This document shows, one piece after another, positions 5,499 through 26,278 of a stretch of 35,425 nucleotides of DNA (position 1 is the stretch's first letter; each line of letters starts with the position of its first letter). The position numbers were made by a program, and so were the translations under genes. Origin of the DNA: a virus; the IMG/VR virus record IMGVR_UViG_3300049733_000280, positions 1-35,425 of that record. One strand, 5' to 3'. The notes below the pieces were generated by a model. The model was not told the origin of the DNA. It did not search any database and saw nothing but the letters and a program-made list of their open reading frames with translations.

Positions 5499-5532
5499 CA
5501 ATCTGATTGTTGGCGAATCCTCCTACCGATAA

Positions 5533-5560
5533 GGGGCCGACTCTTCGGCCCTATTTTTAT
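5533..5560 (+). terminator. Rho-independent terminator
   Basis: A 7-8 bp GC-rich stem (GGGCCGA / TCGGCCC) with a CTCT loop is followed by ATTTTTAT. It closes the plus operon that starts at 2620. Confidence 0.85.
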
Positions 5561-5637
5561 TCCCACCAAAGATTCTTAGGCAATATCTATCAATCGCCTA
5601 AAGATCACTGTTTTCTCGATCTACCGTGATTTTTCTA

Positions 5638-5666
5638 TTGATTCAAACGCGAGTTTGATTTATATT
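5638..5666 (+). promoter_or_regulatory. Promoter with an operator-like palindrome in its spacer
   Basis: TTGATT at 5638-5643 and TATATT at 5661-5666 are 17 bases apart, a good sigma70 match. The spacer holds an inverted repeat, TCAAAC-GCGA-GTTTGA (5643-5658), placed where a repressor would block RNA polymerase. It would drive the 5716-6804 genes. The stretch 5561-5637 has no gene, only a weak hairpin (TTAGGC/GCCTAA). Confidence 0.65.
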
Positions 5667-5715
5667 CTTTTCATCGCAGCGGCAGTTAAGCCGCCGATAA
5701 TCGGAGGAAAAGAAA

Positions 5716-5928
5716 ATGGCATATTGCGACTCAATCCAAATCACTAAAGCGGCTCGGGAGATGGGCGGTCGGCCCGAGTTTGAAAAGACCGTTGGAATCG
5801 GTGACGAGCGCTTGACCCTGTTCCGACTCCCCAACGGGAGCTACGTGATTGAAACCAACGGCGATCCGATTTTTGAAGATGAAAATCAAGAGGCTTTCGC
5901 GGAAGCTCTAAGCACGTTCAAGAAATAG
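5716..5928 (+). CDS. Unrecognised small protein (70 aa)
   Basis: GGAGG lies nine bases before the ATG. The product is a short mixed alpha/beta protein, slightly acidic, with no Cys cluster or membrane segment. Its stop codon overlaps the first base of the hammerhead ribozyme that follows, so its mRNA would be cut about 24 bases after the stop. Confidence 0.75.
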   Translation: MAYCDSIQITKAAREMGGRPEFEKTVGIGDERLTLFRLPNGSYVIETNGDPIFEDENQEAFAEALSTFKK

Positions 5929-5984
5929 CCGAAACGCCCTTTACTGGGCGTCTGCGTGAGCTGACTCCCACGCACTGATGAGGC
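5928..5984 (+). ncRNA. Type II hammerhead ribozyme (candidate)
   Basis: All conserved core parts are present in circularly permuted order. GAAA is at 5931-5934. Stem III is A5934-U5951 plus five GC pairs (CGCCC/GGGCG) with loop TTTACT. The cleavage triplet GUC ends at 5952. Stem I is TGCGTG/CACGCA (5953-5958 with 5969-5974) with a 10-base loop. CUGAUGA is at 5975-5981. Stem II is open and short: GGC 5982-5984 with GCC 5928-5930, only three pairs. With stems I and III closed and II open this is the type II layout known from bacteria and phages. It lies between two genes and would split their transcript after C5952. The weak point is the short stem II. Confidence 0.72.
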
Positions 5985-5996
5985 AAGTCAACAACT

Positions 5997-6011
5997 GCGG
6001 CCCACGCCGCG
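5997..6011 (+). promoter_or_regulatory. GC hairpin downstream of the ribozyme
   Basis: GCGGC-CCAC-GCCGC forms a stable short stem-loop in the leader of the next gene. After ribozyme cleavage it would lie near the new 5' end and could protect it. No U-tract follows, so it is not a terminator. Confidence 0.4.
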
Positions 6012-6038
6012 ATAACGCCGAGAGGCAAAGGAGAAATT

Positions 6039-6242
6039 ATGACGAACATGGAATTTAAAGAGAACCCCTACGACAGCAACGGAATCGTGCTGATTCCTGC
6101 CGACAGTGATAAGAATATTCCGACCACGGCGCAAGTTGAAAAGTTTATGGCGTCGGAACAAGGCGGCCAGTGGAAAGCGTCAGGCGGCTGGCACGCGACC
6201 GGCGACAGCAACGAAGTCTACATTCGTGTCGAGAAACGATAA
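6039..6242 (+). CDS. Unrecognised small protein (67 aa)
   Basis: AAAGGAGAAATT precedes the ATG. The protein has a mixed composition with a Trp/Gly-rich turn (QWKASGGWHATG) and a final strand. It is the first gene after the ribozyme and may be translated from the cleaved downstream RNA. Confidence 0.7.
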   Translation: MTNMEFKENPYDSNGIVLIPADSDKNIPTTAQVEKFMASEQGGQWKASGGWHATGDSNEVYIRVEKR

Positions 6243-6282
6243 GCGACGCCTCAATAATTTCCTTTGATACCGCGAGGAGAGA

Positions 6283-6567
6283 ATGTCAACTAGATACATG
6301 GTGACAGTAAAGTATGGCTTGTACCCGCTTGATCCTGAATGTCGTGGGGGCGGTGAAGTCCTCTACGACGGCTACGACAGCCAAGACGCAGCTTACGAGG
6401 CGACTCGCGCTCAGGAAGGAAAATTCCCCTACCAGAGGGTCGAGATCGACCGCAAGGTAGACGGTCGCTGGGTCCCGTTGACTGGGGGCCGCCGGAAACG
6501 CTTCCTGGCAGTGAGGGAGCGACGGTGGTTAAAATCCGCGGCGCAATTAATCAGTAGGACAGATTGA
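6283..6567 (+). CDS. Unrecognised protein (94 aa)
   Basis: GAGGAGA precedes the ATG. The first 65 residues look like a small alpha/beta domain (VTVKYGLYPLDPECRGGG), and the rest is basic. It lies seven bases before the next gene. No family recognised. Confidence 0.68.
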   Translation: MSTRYMVTVKYGLYPLDPECRGGGEVLYDGYDSQDAAYEATRAQEGKFPYQRVEIDRKVDGRWVPLTGGRRKRFLAVRERRWLKSAAQLISRTD

Positions 6568-6573
6568 AGCAAA

Positions 6574-6804
6574 ATGAAAATCACCAATCTCGAATTTTCC
6601 ACTATTGAAAAAGCGATTCTCTACGCACGCGCCGTGTCGGTCTTGATCGATCAAGGCGAGTCGAAGAAGCAAGCCAGAGGGATTGTTTCAAAAGAAAATC
6701 CCCAAAATATTCTCCGGCTAGCTCTAGGCTTCGAGAGACGAACGAGGGGCGGCGCCAGAGAGAACGCAGGTAGACGGAAAGATCAAAAGCAAAAGCCGGA
6801 GTGA
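6574..6804 (+). CDS. Small basic protein with RGGARENAGRRK tail (76 aa)
   Basis: A short helical domain is followed by RTRGGARENAGRRKD. This resembles the RGGARxGAGRK motif seen near the ends of many short phage and plasmid DNA-associated proteins; its role is uncertain. No strong Shine-Dalgarno is seen, so translation may be coupled to the gene seven bases upstream. A strong terminator follows at once. Confidence 0.68.
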   Translation: MKITNLEFSTIEKAILYARAVSVLIDQGESKKQARGIVSKENPQNILRLALGFERRTRGGARENAGRRKDQKQKPE

Positions 6805-6823
6805 TCTACTCCGGCTTTTTCTT
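6791..6823 (+). terminator. Rho-independent terminator
   Basis: An 11-bp stem (AAAAGCCGGAG / CTCCGGCTTTT) with a seven-base loop runs into TTTTTCTTTCT. It ends the plus block and overlaps the last codons of the gene. Confidence 0.92.
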
Positions 6824-7093: not shown

Positions 7094-8209
7094 CTAACCA
7101 AATGCTTGCTTATCAAATGTCGCTCCCGACATCGAAAACTCGACTTTTGTAGCAAGAAACCCGTCAATATCTCGACACCAAGATTCAAGAGTCTCGATAG
7201 CTCTCCTGAGCGTGTCTAGTTGGGCATGGGTGTACGTGGCCGTTTGATCTTTGCGCTTGTGGCCTAATATCGCGCTGACTGCTGAGTATGGGGTGCCGGC
7301 ATTCTCAAGAACAGTAGCCGCTACGTGGCGCAGATCGTAAATCACCCATCCCTCGTCAATATTGTCTCCGTAAGCCACGCCTGAGCTTTCGCCTATTCGA
7401 TTCAAAACCCTATAGAGCTTGTCTCGATTGATCGAGAAGAATCTCTTCTCTGGTCGAGATCGCAAAATCTCAAGAGCCGTTTCAGACAATGGGACAACGC
7501 GAATAGACCCACCACCTTTCTTCGAGACAATCTTGATGGTTTTCCAGTCCCAACTGACCTGGCTTGATTTCAAATTCAAAATCTCCCCTTCCCTAGCGCC
7601 TGTCAGGAGCATGAGCCTGAAGAGGTCAAAGACCTCGACTCTATTTTTGACCGACAAATATTGCTCATAGTGCTGGCGTTCAGCTCTCAGAGCGAACAAG
7701 ATTTTTGAAATCTCTTCTCTCGGTAAAACTCGGTTTCTTCCTGGGGCATAAGTCAGCCACGGGATTTTTGGACATCGCCATTCGCCCAGATCGGGAAAGC
7801 GTTCTAAAGCTGAAGACAAAATAGCCGAGACTTCAGCCATATAGCGATTGATCGTTCCAGGCTTGCATTGTCGGGCTTTGAGAGAGTCAACATAGTTTTT
7901 CCAATCGGCTCGCGTGAGGTCTCTCAATAACATCTCCGGGCCAACCAGCCTGACAAACTCTGTAAAGATTCGCAAATCCTTCTTGTCTTTCGTCAGGCTG
8001 GTTTTCAAAGCCCCGAGAGTGACCTTTGTCTTTGGCTTCGCCAATCCGTAGCGTTTTGCCCTGGCGTTCAGACGCAAAGCCGATATGGCTTCTTCGGCTT
8101 CCTGCTTTGATTCAAAATCCGAATGCCTATATCTGCGACCATCAACAGTCACGTCAATTTTCCAACGCCATTCGCCAAGGTCTTTGCGCCAGACTTTTTT
8201 GATGTCCAT
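7094..8209 (-). CDS. int: Tyrosine recombinase / phage integrase (371 aa)
   Basis: The layout is that of a phage integrase: an N-terminal arm-binding-like region (DGRRYRHSDFESKQEA), a SAM-like core-binding domain and a catalytic domain. Visible catalytic residues are Arg206 (LTGAREGEIL), the box II motif, His317 (LGHKRKDQ) and the nucleophile Tyr326 (ATYTHAQL). Box II reads YDLRH: Arg294 is present, but the usual first His of HxxR is Tyr. I chose the ATG at 8209 with GAGAG upstream; the frame extends to a TTG at 8224. It would integrate and, with the excisionase-like protein at 11073, excise the element. Confidence 0.95.
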   Translation of the reverse strand: MDIKKVWRKDLGEWRWKIDVTVDGRRYRHSDFESKQEAEEAISALRLNARAKRYGLAKPKTKVTLGALKTSLTKDKKDLRIFTEFVRLVGPEMLLRDLTRADWKNYVDSLKARQCKPGTINRYMAEVSAILSSALERFPDLGEWRCPKIPWLTYAPGRNRVLPREEISKILFALRAERQHYEQYLSVKNRVEVFDLFRLMLLTGAREGEILNLKSSQVSWDWKTIKIVSKKGGGSIRVVPLSETALEILRSRPEKRFFSINRDKLYRVLNRIGESSGVAYGDNIDEGWVIYDLRHVAATVLENAGTPYSAVSAILGHKRKDQTATYTHAQLDTLRRAIETLESWCRDIDGFLATKVEFSMSGATFDKQAFG

Positions 8210-8285
8210 GTCTCTCAACGACAAAAGCCGGAGTCATCCCCCGGCCTTGTCGCCCCCGTCTTTACTGGGTTGTCGCTCTTGTCGC

Positions 8286-17610: not shown

Positions 17611-19524
17611 ATGGCAACAATAGATCAAACACTAAACGACATCATTGCAGCGACGAAGGCGAAACCAAATCAAGGGAGTAGCGGCTGGAAAGGCCATTGC
17701 CCCGCACATAAAGACAAATCACCGTCACTCAGTATCAGTCAGGGCGCAGATACCCGCATACTTCTTAACTGTCATGCTAAATGTCATATTGATTCAATCT
17801 GCGCGGCTTTGAATATCACTCAGGCTGATTTATATCCTCCGAAACAGACACAGGCCAAGCAAACAACAGGCAAACCGTCATACAGTATTGATAAGGTTTA
17901 CGATTATAAAGACGAATCCGGGACGTTGCTTTTCCAGGCCGTTCGCAAGCGATTGACAGACCCCGCGAAATTTCCGAATGAGCCACGTAAACAATTCAGA
18001 CAGCGCCGGCCAGATGGGAAAGGAAATTGGGCTTGGTCGCTTCAAGGCGTTCGGCGTGTTCTCTATCGCCTGCCCGAATTGTTGACCGCGGCTCCTGGCG
18101 CAATCGTCTGGATTGTTGAGGGCGAGAAAGACGTTGACAGACTACGCTCGCTCGGTCTGACGGCAACTTGTAATCCGATGGGCGCCGGGAAATGGCTTGA
18201 TGATTTTTCTAATTTTCTCGCAGGCCATGATTGCGTGGTCATCGAAGACAATGACAACCCCGGACGCGCCCATGCCGAGGGGGTTTGTCAAAGTCTGTTC
18301 GGCAAAGCTCAGAAGATTCGCAAATTGTCTTTTCCGACTCTCCCCGAGCATGGCGACGTTTCAGATTGGCTTGACACCGGAGGGGATGAGACGACTCTTT
18401 ACCGGCTAGCCCAGGCATTGCCCGAATGGGCGCCGCTTGCCGGCAATCAACAGCAACAACAATCAACATCGAAGCCGCAAAAGATTCAAGCGGTCTGCAT
18501 AGCCGATGTCCAAATCAAAACAATTGATTGGCTTTGGGTAAATCGCATTCCCCGAGGAACATTGACCATCGTTGAGGGAATCGAAGGAGAAGGGAAGTCG
18601 ACAATGCTTTGCGCTATCGCTGCGGCTGTCACGCGGGGAAAGGGATTGTTTGATATGGCGATAACTTCCCCTGGAAATGTTCTATGGCTCTCAGCTGAAG
18701 ACGATCTAGGAAGAGTCTTGAAGCCCCGATTGCTGAGTGTTGGGGCGGATGTGACAAAAGTATTTGGCGTGAGCGATCCGTTCACCTTTGACGATAAGGG
18801 CGTTGAACTTGTTCGAGAGTGGGCCGAGGCGTTCACTCCGATAATGATTGTGATTGACCCCATATTCGCCTACGTGAAAGGCGATCCGAACAAGGGCGCA
18901 GATGCTCGCATCACGACCAATCAACTGAAGATAATTTCTGAGGCCCACAATTCCGCAATTGTCATGGTTCGCCACGTCGGAAAGTCGAAGGGCTTTGGCG
19001 ATCCTCGCGCCGCTGGCTTGTACTCGATTGAATGGAGAGCTTCAGCGCGATCGGTTTTGCTCTGTGGTTCCGACCCGGACAATCCTCAACGCCGAGCATT
19101 GACCCAAAGCAAAAATCAGTTTGGCCCGATTTCGGATGCCATCGGTTACGAGATTACGAAAGACCCATCTTCGCCGACCGGAGCCAAGTTTAGTTGGGTG
19201 GGCGTCTCGGATCTGACCGCTTCTCGAATCCTCTCCGGGATGGCTTCGGACGACGATCGAGCGGCTATGTCTACTGCCTGCGATCTCTTGAAAGAGTCTC
19301 TTTCGAGCGGTGAGCGTCTCGCAGATGATATTAAAGCCGAGGCGAAGGCGGTAGGCGTCTCAGAACGCACTTTAAAACGCGCAAGATCAAACATGGGAAT
19401 AGTTTGGAGGCGCGAGGGGTTTGGAACAGGGGCTATTTATTATTGGAAGCTCCCGGACGCCTCAAAGAACGGTTTAAACGGCTTTCATACTGGACCATTG
19501 GCACAGAATGATCTCGCCTTTTAG
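17611..19524 (+). CDS. Primase-helicase: CHC2 zinc finger, TOPRIM, RecA-like ATPase (637 aa)
   Basis: Residues 24-70 form a CHC2-type zinc finger (Cys30, His33, Cys54, Cys58). Residues 164-222 are a TOPRIM domain (VWIVEGEKDVDRL with Glu170; VVIEDNDNPGR). A Gln-rich linker (279-290) leads to a RepA/DnaB-type RecA fold with Walker A GIEGEGKST (323-331), Walker B (IMIVIDPIFAYVKG) and a conserved His/Arg motif (VMVRHVGKSKG). The end is a helical DNA-binding-like tail (VGVSERTLKRARSNMG). It should prime and unwind at the adjacent iteron origin; the first iteron lies inside its last codons. No Shine-Dalgarno is obvious at this start. Confidence 0.93.
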   Translation: MATIDQTLNDIIAATKAKPNQGSSGWKGHCPAHKDKSPSLSISQGADTRILLNCHAKCHIDSICAALNITQADLYPPKQTQAKQTTGKPSYSIDKVYDYKDESGTLLFQAVRKRLTDPAKFPNEPRKQFRQRRPDGKGNWAWSLQGVRRVLYRLPELLTAAPGAIVWIVEGEKDVDRLRSLGLTATCNPMGAGKWLDDFSNFLAGHDCVVIEDNDNPGRAHAEGVCQSLFGKAQKIRKLSFPTLPEHGDVSDWLDTGGDETTLYRLAQALPEWAPLAGNQQQQQSTSKPQKIQAVCIADVQIKTIDWLWVNRIPRGTLTIVEGIEGEGKSTMLCAIAAAVTRGKGLFDMAITSPGNVLWLSAEDDLGRVLKPRLLSVGADVTKVFGVSDPFTFDDKGVELVREWAEAFTPIMIVIDPIFAYVKGDPNKGADARITTNQLKIISEAHNSAIVMVRHVGKSKGFGDPRAAGLYSIEWRASARSVLLCGSDPDNPQRRALTQSKNQFGPISDAIGYEITKDPSSPTGAKFSWVGVSDLTASRILSGMASDDDRAAMSTACDLLKESLSSGERLADDIKAEAKAVGVSERTLKRARSNMGIVWRREGFGTGAIYYWKLPDASKNGLNGFHTGPLAQNDLAF

Positions 19525-20544: not shown

Positions 20545-21369
20545 ATGCTACGAATCATCAGTCTGGGCGCAGGGGTTCAATCGTCAACTATGTTTCTGAT
20601 GGCGTGTCAGGGCGAACTTACGCCTAAGCCTGACGCCGCGATCTTCGCCGACACCCAGTGGGAGCCGAAAGAGGTCTATCAATGGCTCAGCGAGTTGGCG
20701 CGGATCGGTAGTCTATACGGCATCCCGGTGATTCAAGCCACGCGCGGAAATATCCGCGATGACATGCTGCGCGCCACGGTCCGTGGCGCGCAGCGGGATG
20801 GTCAGCGTGCAGCCTCGATGCCTCTCTACACCTCAGACGGAGGCCAGCGAGAGGGAATGATTCGCCGCCAATGCACGCGCGAATACAAGATCGAGGTCGT
20901 CCAAAAAGAAGTGAGGCGCTTGCTGGGTTTGAAACCGCACCAGCGCGCGAAGGCGGACAGCGCTCAACTGTGGATTGGGATCAGCGCTGACGAGGCAAGC
21001 CGAATGAAGACGAGTCGGAAGCGCTGGTACTCGCATCACTACCCGCTGATCTTCGATTGCGAGCCTCCAATGACCCGTCGCGATTGCATAGCCTGGCTCG
21101 AAGCGCACGGCTTCCCGATCCCGCGCAAGTCTGCCTGTCTGGGATGCCCTTATCACTCGAACACTGAATGGCGAGCGATCAGAGAGAACGTCGAAGAGTG
21201 GGCTGACGTGATCGACTTCGATGAACGAATCCGCAACCGAGGCGGACATCGCGGAACGCTTTATGTACACCGCACTTGTAAACCGCTAGCCGAGGTCGAT
21301 CTTTCAACCGCCGAAGAAAGAGGCCAACTCAATTGGATCAATGAATGCGAAGGGATATGCGGAGTCTAA
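20545..21369 (+). CDS. PP-loop ATPase / PAPS-reductase-like enzyme (274 aa)
   Basis: AGGAGAAGGGAAGCC precedes the ATG. The nucleotide-binding PP-loop is visible as SLGAGVQSSTMFLM, with FADTQWEPKEVYQWL after it. Cysteines follow in RRQCTREYKIE, and a CLGCPYHSNTEWRAI motif near the end could hold a metal or iron-sulfur site. The family activates a substrate with ATP (adenylation) and occurs in sulfur transfer and in DndC-like DNA modification; phage members have unknown substrates. The pairing with a GNAT-like gene suggests a nucleic-acid-modifying set. The coding region contains a 29-base near-perfect palindrome. Confidence 0.85.
   Translation: MLRIISLGAGVQSSTMFLMACQGELTPKPDAAIFADTQWEPKEVYQWLSELARIGSLYGIPVIQATRGNIRDDMLRATVRGAQRDGQRAASMPLYTSDGGQREGMIRRQCTREYKIEVVQKEVRRLLGLKPHQRAKADSAQLWIGISADEASRMKTSRKRWYSHHYPLIFDCEPPMTRRDCIAWLEAHGFPIPRKSACLGCPYHSNTEWRAIRENVEEWADVIDFDERIRNRGGHRGTLYVHRTCKPLAEVDLSTAEERGQLNWINECEGICGV
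20766..20794. repeat. 29-base palindrome inside the PP-loop gene
   Basis: GCTGCGCGCCACGG and its exact complement flank a single T. In mRNA this is a 14-pair GC-rich stem with almost no loop; in DNA it may extrude. It encodes LRATVRGAQR with no disruption of the frame. It is more GC-rich than its surroundings. Confidence 0.75.
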
Positions 21370-23378: not shown

Positions 23379-24200
23379 ATGGAATTTCATCCAATTGCAA
23401 ATCTATTTCCAATGATGAGTGTCGAAGAATTCAAAGCGCTTAAAGAAAGCATTCGGAAGCATGGCCAACGAATACCAATCTATACCCACGAAGGCAAGAT
23501 CGTAGATGGCCGCAATCGATATCAAGCCTGTAGGGAGCTTGGCATTAAGCCCTACCTTGAAGGGTGGGACGGTAAAGGCCTGCTTGTTGATTTCGTATGG
23601 GATTTGAATGCTGAGCGGCGACAATTAACAGGTGGCGCTCTTCATATTGCCGCAGCCAAATATGCAATTGAACGCCAGACGGAGGCAAAACAAAGGCAAG
23701 GGGCGAGAACAGATTTGACTTCGGGTCCAATTGGACCCGAAGTCAGTTTTGGCAAGTCAACCGATAAAGCGGCTGAAAAATTCAATCTTGGACGTACAAC
23801 AGTGAAGCGGGCTGTTAGGGTTGTCAAGCATGGCGCATCAGAATTGCTTCAAGCCGTCGAATCCGGTCAAGCCTCAGTTCATAGCGCCGCTCAAATAGTC
23901 GCGCTCCCAATCGAAAAACAAAAAGAGATTGTTGCGCGTGGCAAGAATGAAATTCTAAAAACAGCAAAAGAGATTGAGCGCCAACAGATTCAAAAGCGCG
24001 CACATGGATTAAACGGCGTCCCCAAATCTATCTCACAACAACTAAGAGAAAAGGAGGAAAACAAGGAAATCAAAGTGCAAGGTGTGGGCGTTACCCATGC
24101 GCATGAGGCTATTAACTGTTTGAAACGAATCCCTAAAAACGATGGGCTAAGAAAGCGCGGCTTTCAGATCGTAACGGATTGGATCAAACACAACCAGTAA
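23379..24200 (+). CDS. ParB-like domain protein (273 aa)
   Basis: Residues 1-85 have the ParB N-terminal fold: FPMMSVEEFKALKESIRKHG, IVDGRNRYQACRELG, then a helical part and an HTH-like segment (KAAEKFNLGRTTVKRAVRVVKHG). DGRNR is the ParB box II-like motif that binds CTP in true ParB proteins. A 30-base palindrome sits between the two domains. Such proteins in phages act as regulators or nucleases as often as in partition; no ParA is seen nearby, so partition is unlikely. Confidence 0.82.
   Translation: MEFHPIANLFPMMSVEEFKALKESIRKHGQRIPIYTHEGKIVDGRNRYQACRELGIKPYLEGWDGKGLLVDFVWDLNAERRQLTGGALHIAAAKYAIERQTEAKQRQGARTDLTSGPIGPEVSFGKSTDKAAEKFNLGRTTVKRAVRVVKHGASELLQAVESGQASVHSAAQIVALPIEKQKEIVARGKNEILKTAKEIERQQIQKRAHGLNGVPKSISQQLREKEENKEIKVQGVGVTHAHEAINCLKRIPKNDGLRKRGFQIVTDWIKHNQ
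23716..23745. repeat. 30-bp perfect palindrome inside the ParB-like gene
   Basis: TGACTTCGGGTCCAA is followed at once by its exact reverse complement. It encodes LTSGPIGPEVS in a linker between the ParB domain and the HTH-like region, where an insertion would be tolerated. It may be a small mobile palindrome or a self-binding site. Confidence 0.85.
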
Positions 24201-24209
24201 GGAGTAAAT

Positions 24210-25028
24210 ATGTCAAAAAAGATCGAGAGCACCAAGAACTACCGCATGTTCCATAACAACAGCGGTGAGAATCGGCCTCTTGAAATTAAAAAACACAGGC
24301 AGCTTATAGAATCCATGAAACTGTATGGATTCCTAGACTGCTACCCCATCATTGTTTATCGGGACAGTAAAGGCCAATGGATTGTCAAAGAAGGTCAGCA
24401 CCGATTGGCTATCGCTGAAACGCTTGGGCTTCCTGTCCATTATGTCGAAACAACAGTTGATTTCGATATAGCCCTTGTCAACAACACACAAAAAACTTGG
24501 TCGTTGATTGACTACGCTCGAAAGCATGCCGCCAATGGTATTAAGACCTATCAAGAAGGATTGGAGTTCATAGAACAATATGGACTACCGGTCAGCAAGG
24601 CTTTTTCACTGCTTGCCGGTACGGCTGTTTTCAGCAACTTTGAAGACTCTTTTAAGGACGGCACATTTAAGATTAAGGACAGGCCCTGGGCGAATGCTGT
24701 TGCGGGTATCTATGCGCCTCTTGTTGAAATGTCAAAGGCAATAAAGAATGACAGAATGATTGAAGCCTGTATGGCGGTCTGTCGAATCCCCGACTTTGAT
24801 TCACACAGATTGCTTTCAAACGCTGAACGATGCCGTGACAAGTTGGTCTCATATTCCACGCGTGAAGCTTACTTGGAGATGTTGGAGGACATCTACAACT
24901 TCCATCGCAGCAAATTGGTCGGCCTAAAAGCCGCCGCGATGATGGCGATGCGCGAACGTAATCCAGCCAAAAAGAAAACGCCGCTTGGAAAGAGACGCTC
25001 ACCTGAACAGATCGGAGCGCGTCCATAA
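24210..25028 (+). CDS. Second ParB-like domain protein (272 aa)
   Basis: AAGGAGTAAAT precedes the ATG. The N-terminal 90 residues are ParB-like: LEIKKHRQLIESMKLYGFLD, PIIVYRD, WIVKEGQHRLAIAETLG and a final hydrophobic strand. GQHR replaces GRNR of the upstream neighbour. The rest is helical, with a basic end (KKKTPLGKRRSP). The tandem of two ParB-domain proteins suggests they act together or are ancient duplicates. Confidence 0.78.
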   Translation: MSKKIESTKNYRMFHNNSGENRPLEIKKHRQLIESMKLYGFLDCYPIIVYRDSKGQWIVKEGQHRLAIAETLGLPVHYVETTVDFDIALVNNTQKTWSLIDYARKHAANGIKTYQEGLEFIEQYGLPVSKAFSLLAGTAVFSNFEDSFKDGTFKIKDRPWANAVAGIYAPLVEMSKAIKNDRMIEACMAVCRIPDFDSHRLLSNAERCRDKLVSYSTREAYLEMLEDIYNFHRSKLVGLKAAAMMAMRERNPAKKKTPLGKRRSPEQIGARP

Positions 25029-25167: not shown

Positions 25168-25722
25168 ATGAGCGAAACCAGAAAATATCTGACCGAATCT
25201 GAGATCGAGGCTTTCTTGAAAGCCTCGAAGAAGACCCGCAACGGTATCAGGAATTATTGCATGGCGATCATGGCCTATCGTCATGGATTTCGAGTGTCAG
25301 AACTGATCAACGTTCGGATGGATGAAATCCACTTGGACATGGCCCGGCTCGAGGTTCGGAGGCTCAAGAAGGGGCTAGACGGCCATCATCCAATCGAAGG
25401 AGATGAACTACGGGCAATTCGGGCATGGCTCAAAGAAAGAACCGTTCACAAACTTTCAGGCTCACCCAACCTCTTTCTCAGCGAGCGTGGGCCATTCACA
25501 AGGCAAGCGGTCAACTATCTTTTCGAGGTCATAGGCCAGAAAGCCGGCCTGACAATCAAAGTCCATCCCCATATGCTTCGCCATTCCTGCGGCTACAAAC
25601 TGGCCAACGACGAAAGGACGACCAGAGACATTCAAGACTATCTTGGCCATCGAGACATCAGGCAGACGGCCAAATACACAGCCCTCAACGCCGAGCGATT
25701 CAGAAACTTTTGGAGGAAATGA
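25168..25722 (+). CDS. Small tyrosine recombinase, FimB/Xer-like (184 aa)
   Basis: Only the catalytic domain is present, as in FimB-type invertases. All key residues are visible: Arg42 (HGFRVSELI), His135 and Arg138 (HMLRHSCG), His161 (LGHRDIRQT) and the nucleophile Tyr170 (AKYTALN). The start has AAAGAG upstream. Together with the large integrase this gives the element two recombinases; a small one could resolve dimers, invert a segment or act at the 25088-25119 site. No obvious invertible gene is seen nearby. Confidence 0.9.
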   Translation: MSETRKYLTESEIEAFLKASKKTRNGIRNYCMAIMAYRHGFRVSELINVRMDEIHLDMARLEVRRLKKGLDGHHPIEGDELRAIRAWLKERTVHKLSGSPNLFLSERGPFTRQAVNYLFEVIGQKAGLTIKVHPHMLRHSCGYKLANDERTTRDIQDYLGHRDIRQTAKYTALNAERFRNFWRK

Positions 25723-26203: not shown

Positions 26204-26278
26204 GCCGGGGTCGCGAAATTGGAAAAAGCACCGGGCTCAGAGTTCGGCACATTGTGGGTTCGAATCCCACTCCCGACA
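26204..26278 (+). tRNA. Degenerate tRNA-Leu-like gene, CAG anticodon
   Basis: A cloverleaf can be drawn. The acceptor stem GCCGGGG/TCCCGAC has one mismatch (2-71). The anticodon stem CCGGG/TTCGG encloses loop CTCAGAG with anticodon CAG. The T arm GTGGG-TTCGAAT-CCCAC is perfect. The sequence resembles a standard tRNA-Leu, but the D stem has only two pairs, the long variable arm of Leu tRNAs is missing (six bases) and no CCA is encoded. It may be decayed, a non-canonical tRNA, or an attachment-site relic. Confidence 0.6.

Follow-up and report, generated by a model that had tools for sequence, protein, structure and literature searches.

A candidate type II hammerhead ribozyme at the stop codon of a small gene in a moron-like phage operon

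The window analyzed here is the whole 35,425-nucleotide (nt) stretch of IMG/VR virus record IMGVR_UViG_3300049733_000280, a 35.4-kb virus record with few recognizable phage genes. Four small genes lie on its plus strand within a block of about 1.26 kb (positions 5553 to 6816), encoding proteins of 70 amino acids (aa) (5716 to 5928, with GGAGG before the ATG), 67 aa (6039 to 6242, with AAAGGAG before the ATG), 94 aa (6283 to 6567), and 76 aa (6574 to 6804). A promoter-like site on the same strand (TTGATT-17-TATATT, 5638 to 5666) precedes the 70-aa gene; it is a weak match, with 9 of 12 consensus positions, and such sites occur at background number. The block follows a plus-strand terminator (5533 to 5552) and ends in a bidirectional terminator hairpin consisting of a 13-pair stem and a T-rich tail (6791 to 6819). 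Between the 70-aa gene upstream and the 67-aa gene downstream lies a predicted type II hammerhead ribozyme (5928 to 5984, plus strand), and no open reading frame (ORF) of ≥50 aa crosses positions 5929 to 5987 on either strand. All four genes belong to no known family, with no matches to Pfam or PHROGs. Relatives were not found for the 70-aa protein in viral contigs or plasmids, for the 67-aa protein in viral contigs, or for the 94-aa protein in phages or plasmids, and the DNA from 5500 to 6600 showed no similarity to phages.

Searches with the primase and the integrase returned one and three related records, respectively, with one record shared, giving three relatives (L212, L213, and L214). 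Over the left arm, where they were compared, L213 and L214 matched at the same coordinates and with the same identities, so that the three relatives represent two lineages. Each relative is collinear with the window and lacks the ribozyme together with the surrounding block, while the terminator in front of the block is conserved in these records. In L213 and L214, the positions corresponding to 5562 and 6817 of the window immediately adjoin each other, within the T-tract of a terminator; in L212, 243 nt stand in place of the block, and the continuity of the flanks is less sharp than in L213 and L214. A gain of the cassette in the lineage of the window is the simpler reading and the one we prefer, the alternative being a loss in the others. 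Judged from its layout, the ribozyme-bearing block appears to have the anatomy of a moron, and we term it a moron-like operon. Like a phage moron, which has its own promoter and terminator, it is a block between two terminators that is missing in relatives and contains small unknown genes; unlike a moron, it carries a ribozyme inside the operon, and its promoter matches the consensus only weakly.

The complete set of hammerhead elements could be read directly from the sequence. The 5′ strand of stem II (GCC, 5928 to 5930) is followed by the GAAA core element (5931 to 5934), the stem III hairpin ACGCCC-UUUACU-GGGCGU (5934 to 5951), the GUC cleavage triplet (5950 to 5952), the stem I hairpin (5953 to 5974), the core CUGAUGA (5975 to 5981), and the second strand of stem II (GGC, 5982 to 5984). 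Stem III comprises 6 bp (A5934-C5939/G5946-U5951), counting the A15.1-U16.1 pair, and is closed by the loop UUUACU; stem I pairs UGCGUG (5953 to 5958) with CACGCA (5969 to 5974) around the loop AGCUGACUCC; and stem II has 3 bp (G5928-C5930/G5982-C5984). The invariant core is intact, with CUGAUGA, GAAA, A15.1-U16.1, and a UH cleavage site. According to the order of the elements and the minimum free energy (MFE) fold, stems I and III are loop closed and stem II is open. Based on hammerhead chemistry, cleavage is predicted after C5952 (between 5952 and 5953), which is 24 nt beyond the UAG stop codon of the 70-aa gene (5926 to 5928). Stem II and this stop codon share G5928 and thus overlap by 1 nt.

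The Rfam covariance model Hammerhead_II (RF02276) matched positions 5927 to 5992 over its whole length (model positions 1 to 66) with 40.3 bits and an E value of 5.2e-5; this score exceeds the gathering score of 37 by only 3.3 bits. No second hammerhead turned up in the record at an E value of ≤10, and no type I hammerhead was matched. Apart from one tRNA, neither further self-cleaving ribozymes nor other Rfam families exceeded their thresholds in the window. The MFE fold of positions 5926 to 5992 is exactly the hammerhead (−21.9 kcal/mol), and 2 of 200 shuffled sequences gave folds as good. Stem III had a pairing probability of ≥0.978 in all contexts tried. When longer contexts were folded without a pseudoknot, other pairings of stem II were favored, and the probability of stem II ranged from 0.03 to 0.73. 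One competing fold in these contexts pairs the coding end of the 70-aa gene with stem I; a special significance of this long-range pairing was rejected, since it is no better than that of shuffled sequences (z = −0.64). A second copy of the stem I sequence CCCACGC (5967 to 5973) lies about 34 nt downstream, within the leader of the next gene (6001 to 6007), and might pair with the 5′ strand of stem I in its place.

In addition to the elements listed in an earlier note on this DNA, we found a pseudoknot between loop I and the 3′ tail, in which UGACU (5962 to 5966) is the perfect complement of AGUCA (5986 to 5990), giving five Watson-Crick pairs. Type II hammerheads typically have such a contact between loop I and the tail, which gives them speed at low magnesium (PMC3088659), and a pseudoknot of at least four pairs, a majority feature of RF02276, is present here. 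Among the matches listed, 63% of the nonredundant viral ribozymes had at least five loop/tail pairs, compared to a mean of 44% and a maximum of 52% when tails were swapped (100 swaps); in the bacterial-genome set, the same test gave a weak contrast (63% versus 53%). By our own estimate, a five-pair match in one given ribozyme has a chance probability of perhaps a few per cent, and we therefore take the match as support rather than proof.

The earlier note had proposed a type II core in this order between two small genes, a predicted cut site 24 bases past the stop of the 70-aa gene, and an overlap of stem II with the stop codon, and had asked for the covariance-model search; coordinates, MFE fold, and model score bear out each of these proposals, and the type II class is upheld by the agreement of model, core, topology, and pseudoknot. 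Its suspicion that the three-pair stem II would be the likeliest weakness did not hold. Two pairs are common in stem II of type II hammerheads, and in one active example the pseudoknot holds a stem II of just one pair (PMC3088659), so a three-pair stem II is ordinary. By its sequence, the element at 5928 to 5984 is a genuine-looking type II hammerhead and would be another example of an already known ribozyme type, since type II hammerheads were described in phages by Perreault et al. in 2011 (PMC3088659).

A chance resemblance to a hammerhead is very improbable. Stem II or the pseudoknot alone is short enough to arise randomly, but the E value of 5e-5 holds against all of Rfam, and a loose core pattern that matched once in the window was expected 0.01 times in shuffled windows; furthermore, the motif is intergenic, on the correct strand, and in the right context. 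At least 120 viral stretches matched the intact-core pattern, compared to 3 that matched a control pattern altered at two core bases, and 14 control genomes contained no Hammerhead_II match above the gathering score. It also seems improbable, if somewhat less so, that the element is a degenerate or inactive relic carried along with the cassette. Such a reading could draw on its single copy, its score of 40.3 bits, and the lack of a conserved ortholog (no orthologous copy was found, the three related records being without the ribozyme), but every core base, each of the three stems, and the pseudoknot have been retained, whereas losses would be expected in a relic.

We consider it likely that this type II hammerhead cleaves in cis and thereby processes the mRNA of a small moron-like accessory operon in a temperate phage. 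Transcripts could originate at the cassette promoter or by readthrough from upstream. Once the last ribosome has finished the 70-aa gene, the RNA would fold in its wake, with ribosomes kept out of the ribozyme fold by the placement of the stop, and would be cut after C5952. The upstream product would be a short mRNA of a single gene, terminated by hairpin III 24 nt past the stop and carrying a 2′,3′-cyclic phosphate; the downstream product would carry the 67-, 94-, and 76-aa genes and begin with a 5′ hydroxyl directly at the fully paired hairpin I. A 3′-terminal hairpin and a paired 5′ end without a phosphate slow exonucleases and RNase E. Because both new RNA ends are structured, the stability and dosage of gene 1 would probably be uncoupled from those of genes 2 to 4, and the simplest role is the splitting of a single transcript into two RNAs with lifetimes of their own, given that structured ends slow decay. 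We infer cleavage in the cell, the chemistry of the ends (with the 5′ hydroxyl following from hammerhead chemistry), and the effect on stability. Circularization or excision by paired ribozymes was rejected for this locus, which has a single copy.

Processing of one transcript into separate mRNAs has been proposed for prophage hammerhead arrays; cleavage by type II hammerheads of prophages has been seen in vitro and, for a clustered set, in Escherichia coli (PMC3088659). According to a 2017 review, the role of prokaryotic hammerheads is an open question (PMC6155905). The ribozyme in the window shares with the RF02276 type II hammerheads described previously (PMC3088659) the core, an open stem II of two to three pairs, closed stems I and III, and the loop I/tail pseudoknot, as well as its setting, that is, an intergenic position in a temperate phage, near an integrase gene and alongside small unknown genes. 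It differs from them in being a single copy rather than an array, in its pseudoknot sequence (UGACU/AGUCA), and in lying on a cassette that is missing in relatives. The prophage hammerheads clustered with ardA in Agrobacterium tumefaciens likewise lie between genes of one phage transcript, which they are thought to cut into gene-sized mRNAs (PMC3088659). That cluster has three ribozymes with tested activity, whereas the window has one predicted ribozyme among unrelated small genes.

We then asked where hammerheads lie relative to upstream stop codons, measuring the distance between stem II and the stop of the longest upstream open frame. The viral-contig set, obtained with a type II pattern, comprised at least 143 nonredundant ribozymes, 138 of which had enough upstream sequence; the viral sets were selected by a GCC/GGC stem II, and genes were mechanically called open frames. 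For bacterial genomes, a different pattern that left the outer stem II bases unspecified gave at least 78 ribozymes, of which 77 were usable. Among the matches listed, the stop ended between −3 and +1 nt of stem II in 80 of 138 type II hammerheads of phage contigs and in 38 of 77 of those in bacterial genomes. Random positions in the same loci lay at a stop in 1.6% (phage contigs) and 1.8% (bacterial genomes) of cases. The upstream proteins are nearly all unrelated, forming 121 clusters for 124 viral proteins and 57 for 72 from bacterial genomes, and the stop placement was found in 78 of the 121 viral clusters (matches listed in each case). Stop placement is therefore the rule and not a peculiarity of the ribozyme in the window, and, being found downstream of unrelated genes, it is convergent. 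Single phage contigs also carried arrays of 4 to 11 type II matches along strings of genes (G004 [L010], with 11; G005 [L066], with 9; G006 [L107]; and G007 [L113]).

The type I hammerheads of phages are also anchored at stops. The UGA of CUGAUGA is itself the stop of the upstream frame in about two dozen cases; most of these ORFs are unrelated, and a few may be spurious. Examples in which the first UGA serves as the stop include L234, L242, L243, L249, L274, L279, L288, and L312, among others; in seven other type I cases, the frame stays open across the core (..DEA), and its stop lies within the stem II loop. Type I and type II phage hammerheads thus start where coding ends, whichever module forms their 5′ edge. 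The term “stop codon” does not occur in the main texts of PMC3088659 and PMC6155905, and the search for earlier reports covered openly licensed papers only.

One possible explanation, from which we lean away, is that the anchoring reflects only the compactness of phage genomes, with the ribozyme occupying the minimum room between genes. The next start codon is also near, at a median distance of 27.5 nt in phages (quartiles, 21 to 36 nt) and 17 nt in bacterial genomes. If placement within the gap were uniform, however, 25 phage ribozymes would be expected at the stop, and 60 were observed among the matches listed (43 versus 27 with the strictest setting of the test). Moreover, terminator-like hairpins of the same phage loci lay at a stop in only 4%, and type III hammerheads did so in only 1 case in a set of just 15.

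A further reading, which we regard as doubtful, is that translation gates the ribozyme. A terminating ribosome covers about 12 nt beyond the stop, and a ribosome terminating at the UAG at 5926 to 5928 would cover stem II together with the 5′ strand of stem III, delaying cleavage until its departure. Cleavage might then, again tentatively, report translation of gene 1 and spare ribosomes capture on a cut message. Gating would be compatible with the processing of the operon mRNA described above and could add to it. It is favored by the overlap of stem II with the stop in the window; by an anchoring that recurs widely, is convergent among genes without kinship, and is tighter than the spacing to the following start, which in phages varies more than that to the stop; by the type I core's own UGA as the stop of largely unrelated ORFs; and by the ability of the gene 1 coding stretch to pair with stem I. 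Against it, the same placement would be expected if a ribozyme merely has to avoid coding sequence and yet stay near the stop, and the competing fold, as noted, does no better than shuffled sequences. Extended to phage hammerheads at large, it would make them stop-linked elements in which ORF and ribozyme form one unit and the terminating ribosome times the cut, with the ribozyme of the window as a moron-borne instance; we offer this as speculation. For type I and type II phage hammerheads, the anchoring is a clue to function that makes the question of their role experimentally simple, and its generality is the part most worth following. With its single ribozyme, four small genes, and relatives without the cassette, the window provides a small test case.

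Elsewhere in the record, an integrase gene lies on the minus strand (7094 to 8224), about 1.1 kb from the ribozyme, and a primase/helicase gene lies at 17611 to 19524. Two neighboring ParB-like genes (23379 to 25028) are located upstream of a second, shorter integrase gene (25168 to 25722), and the right-hand minus-strand block has no PHROGs matches. Because of these ParB-like genes and this block, we regard the record as an unusual temperate phage or phage-plasmid. The primase/helicase is only 25 to 30% identical to the versions of Arthrobacter and Microbacterium phages; the closest relatives are three uncultivated virus records. A phosphoadenosine phosphosulfate reductase-like gene, a frequent auxiliary gene of phages, is present at 20545 to 21369 (PHROG 424), and a tRNA-Leu (CAG) gene (26204 to 26278) adjoins the second integrase gene.
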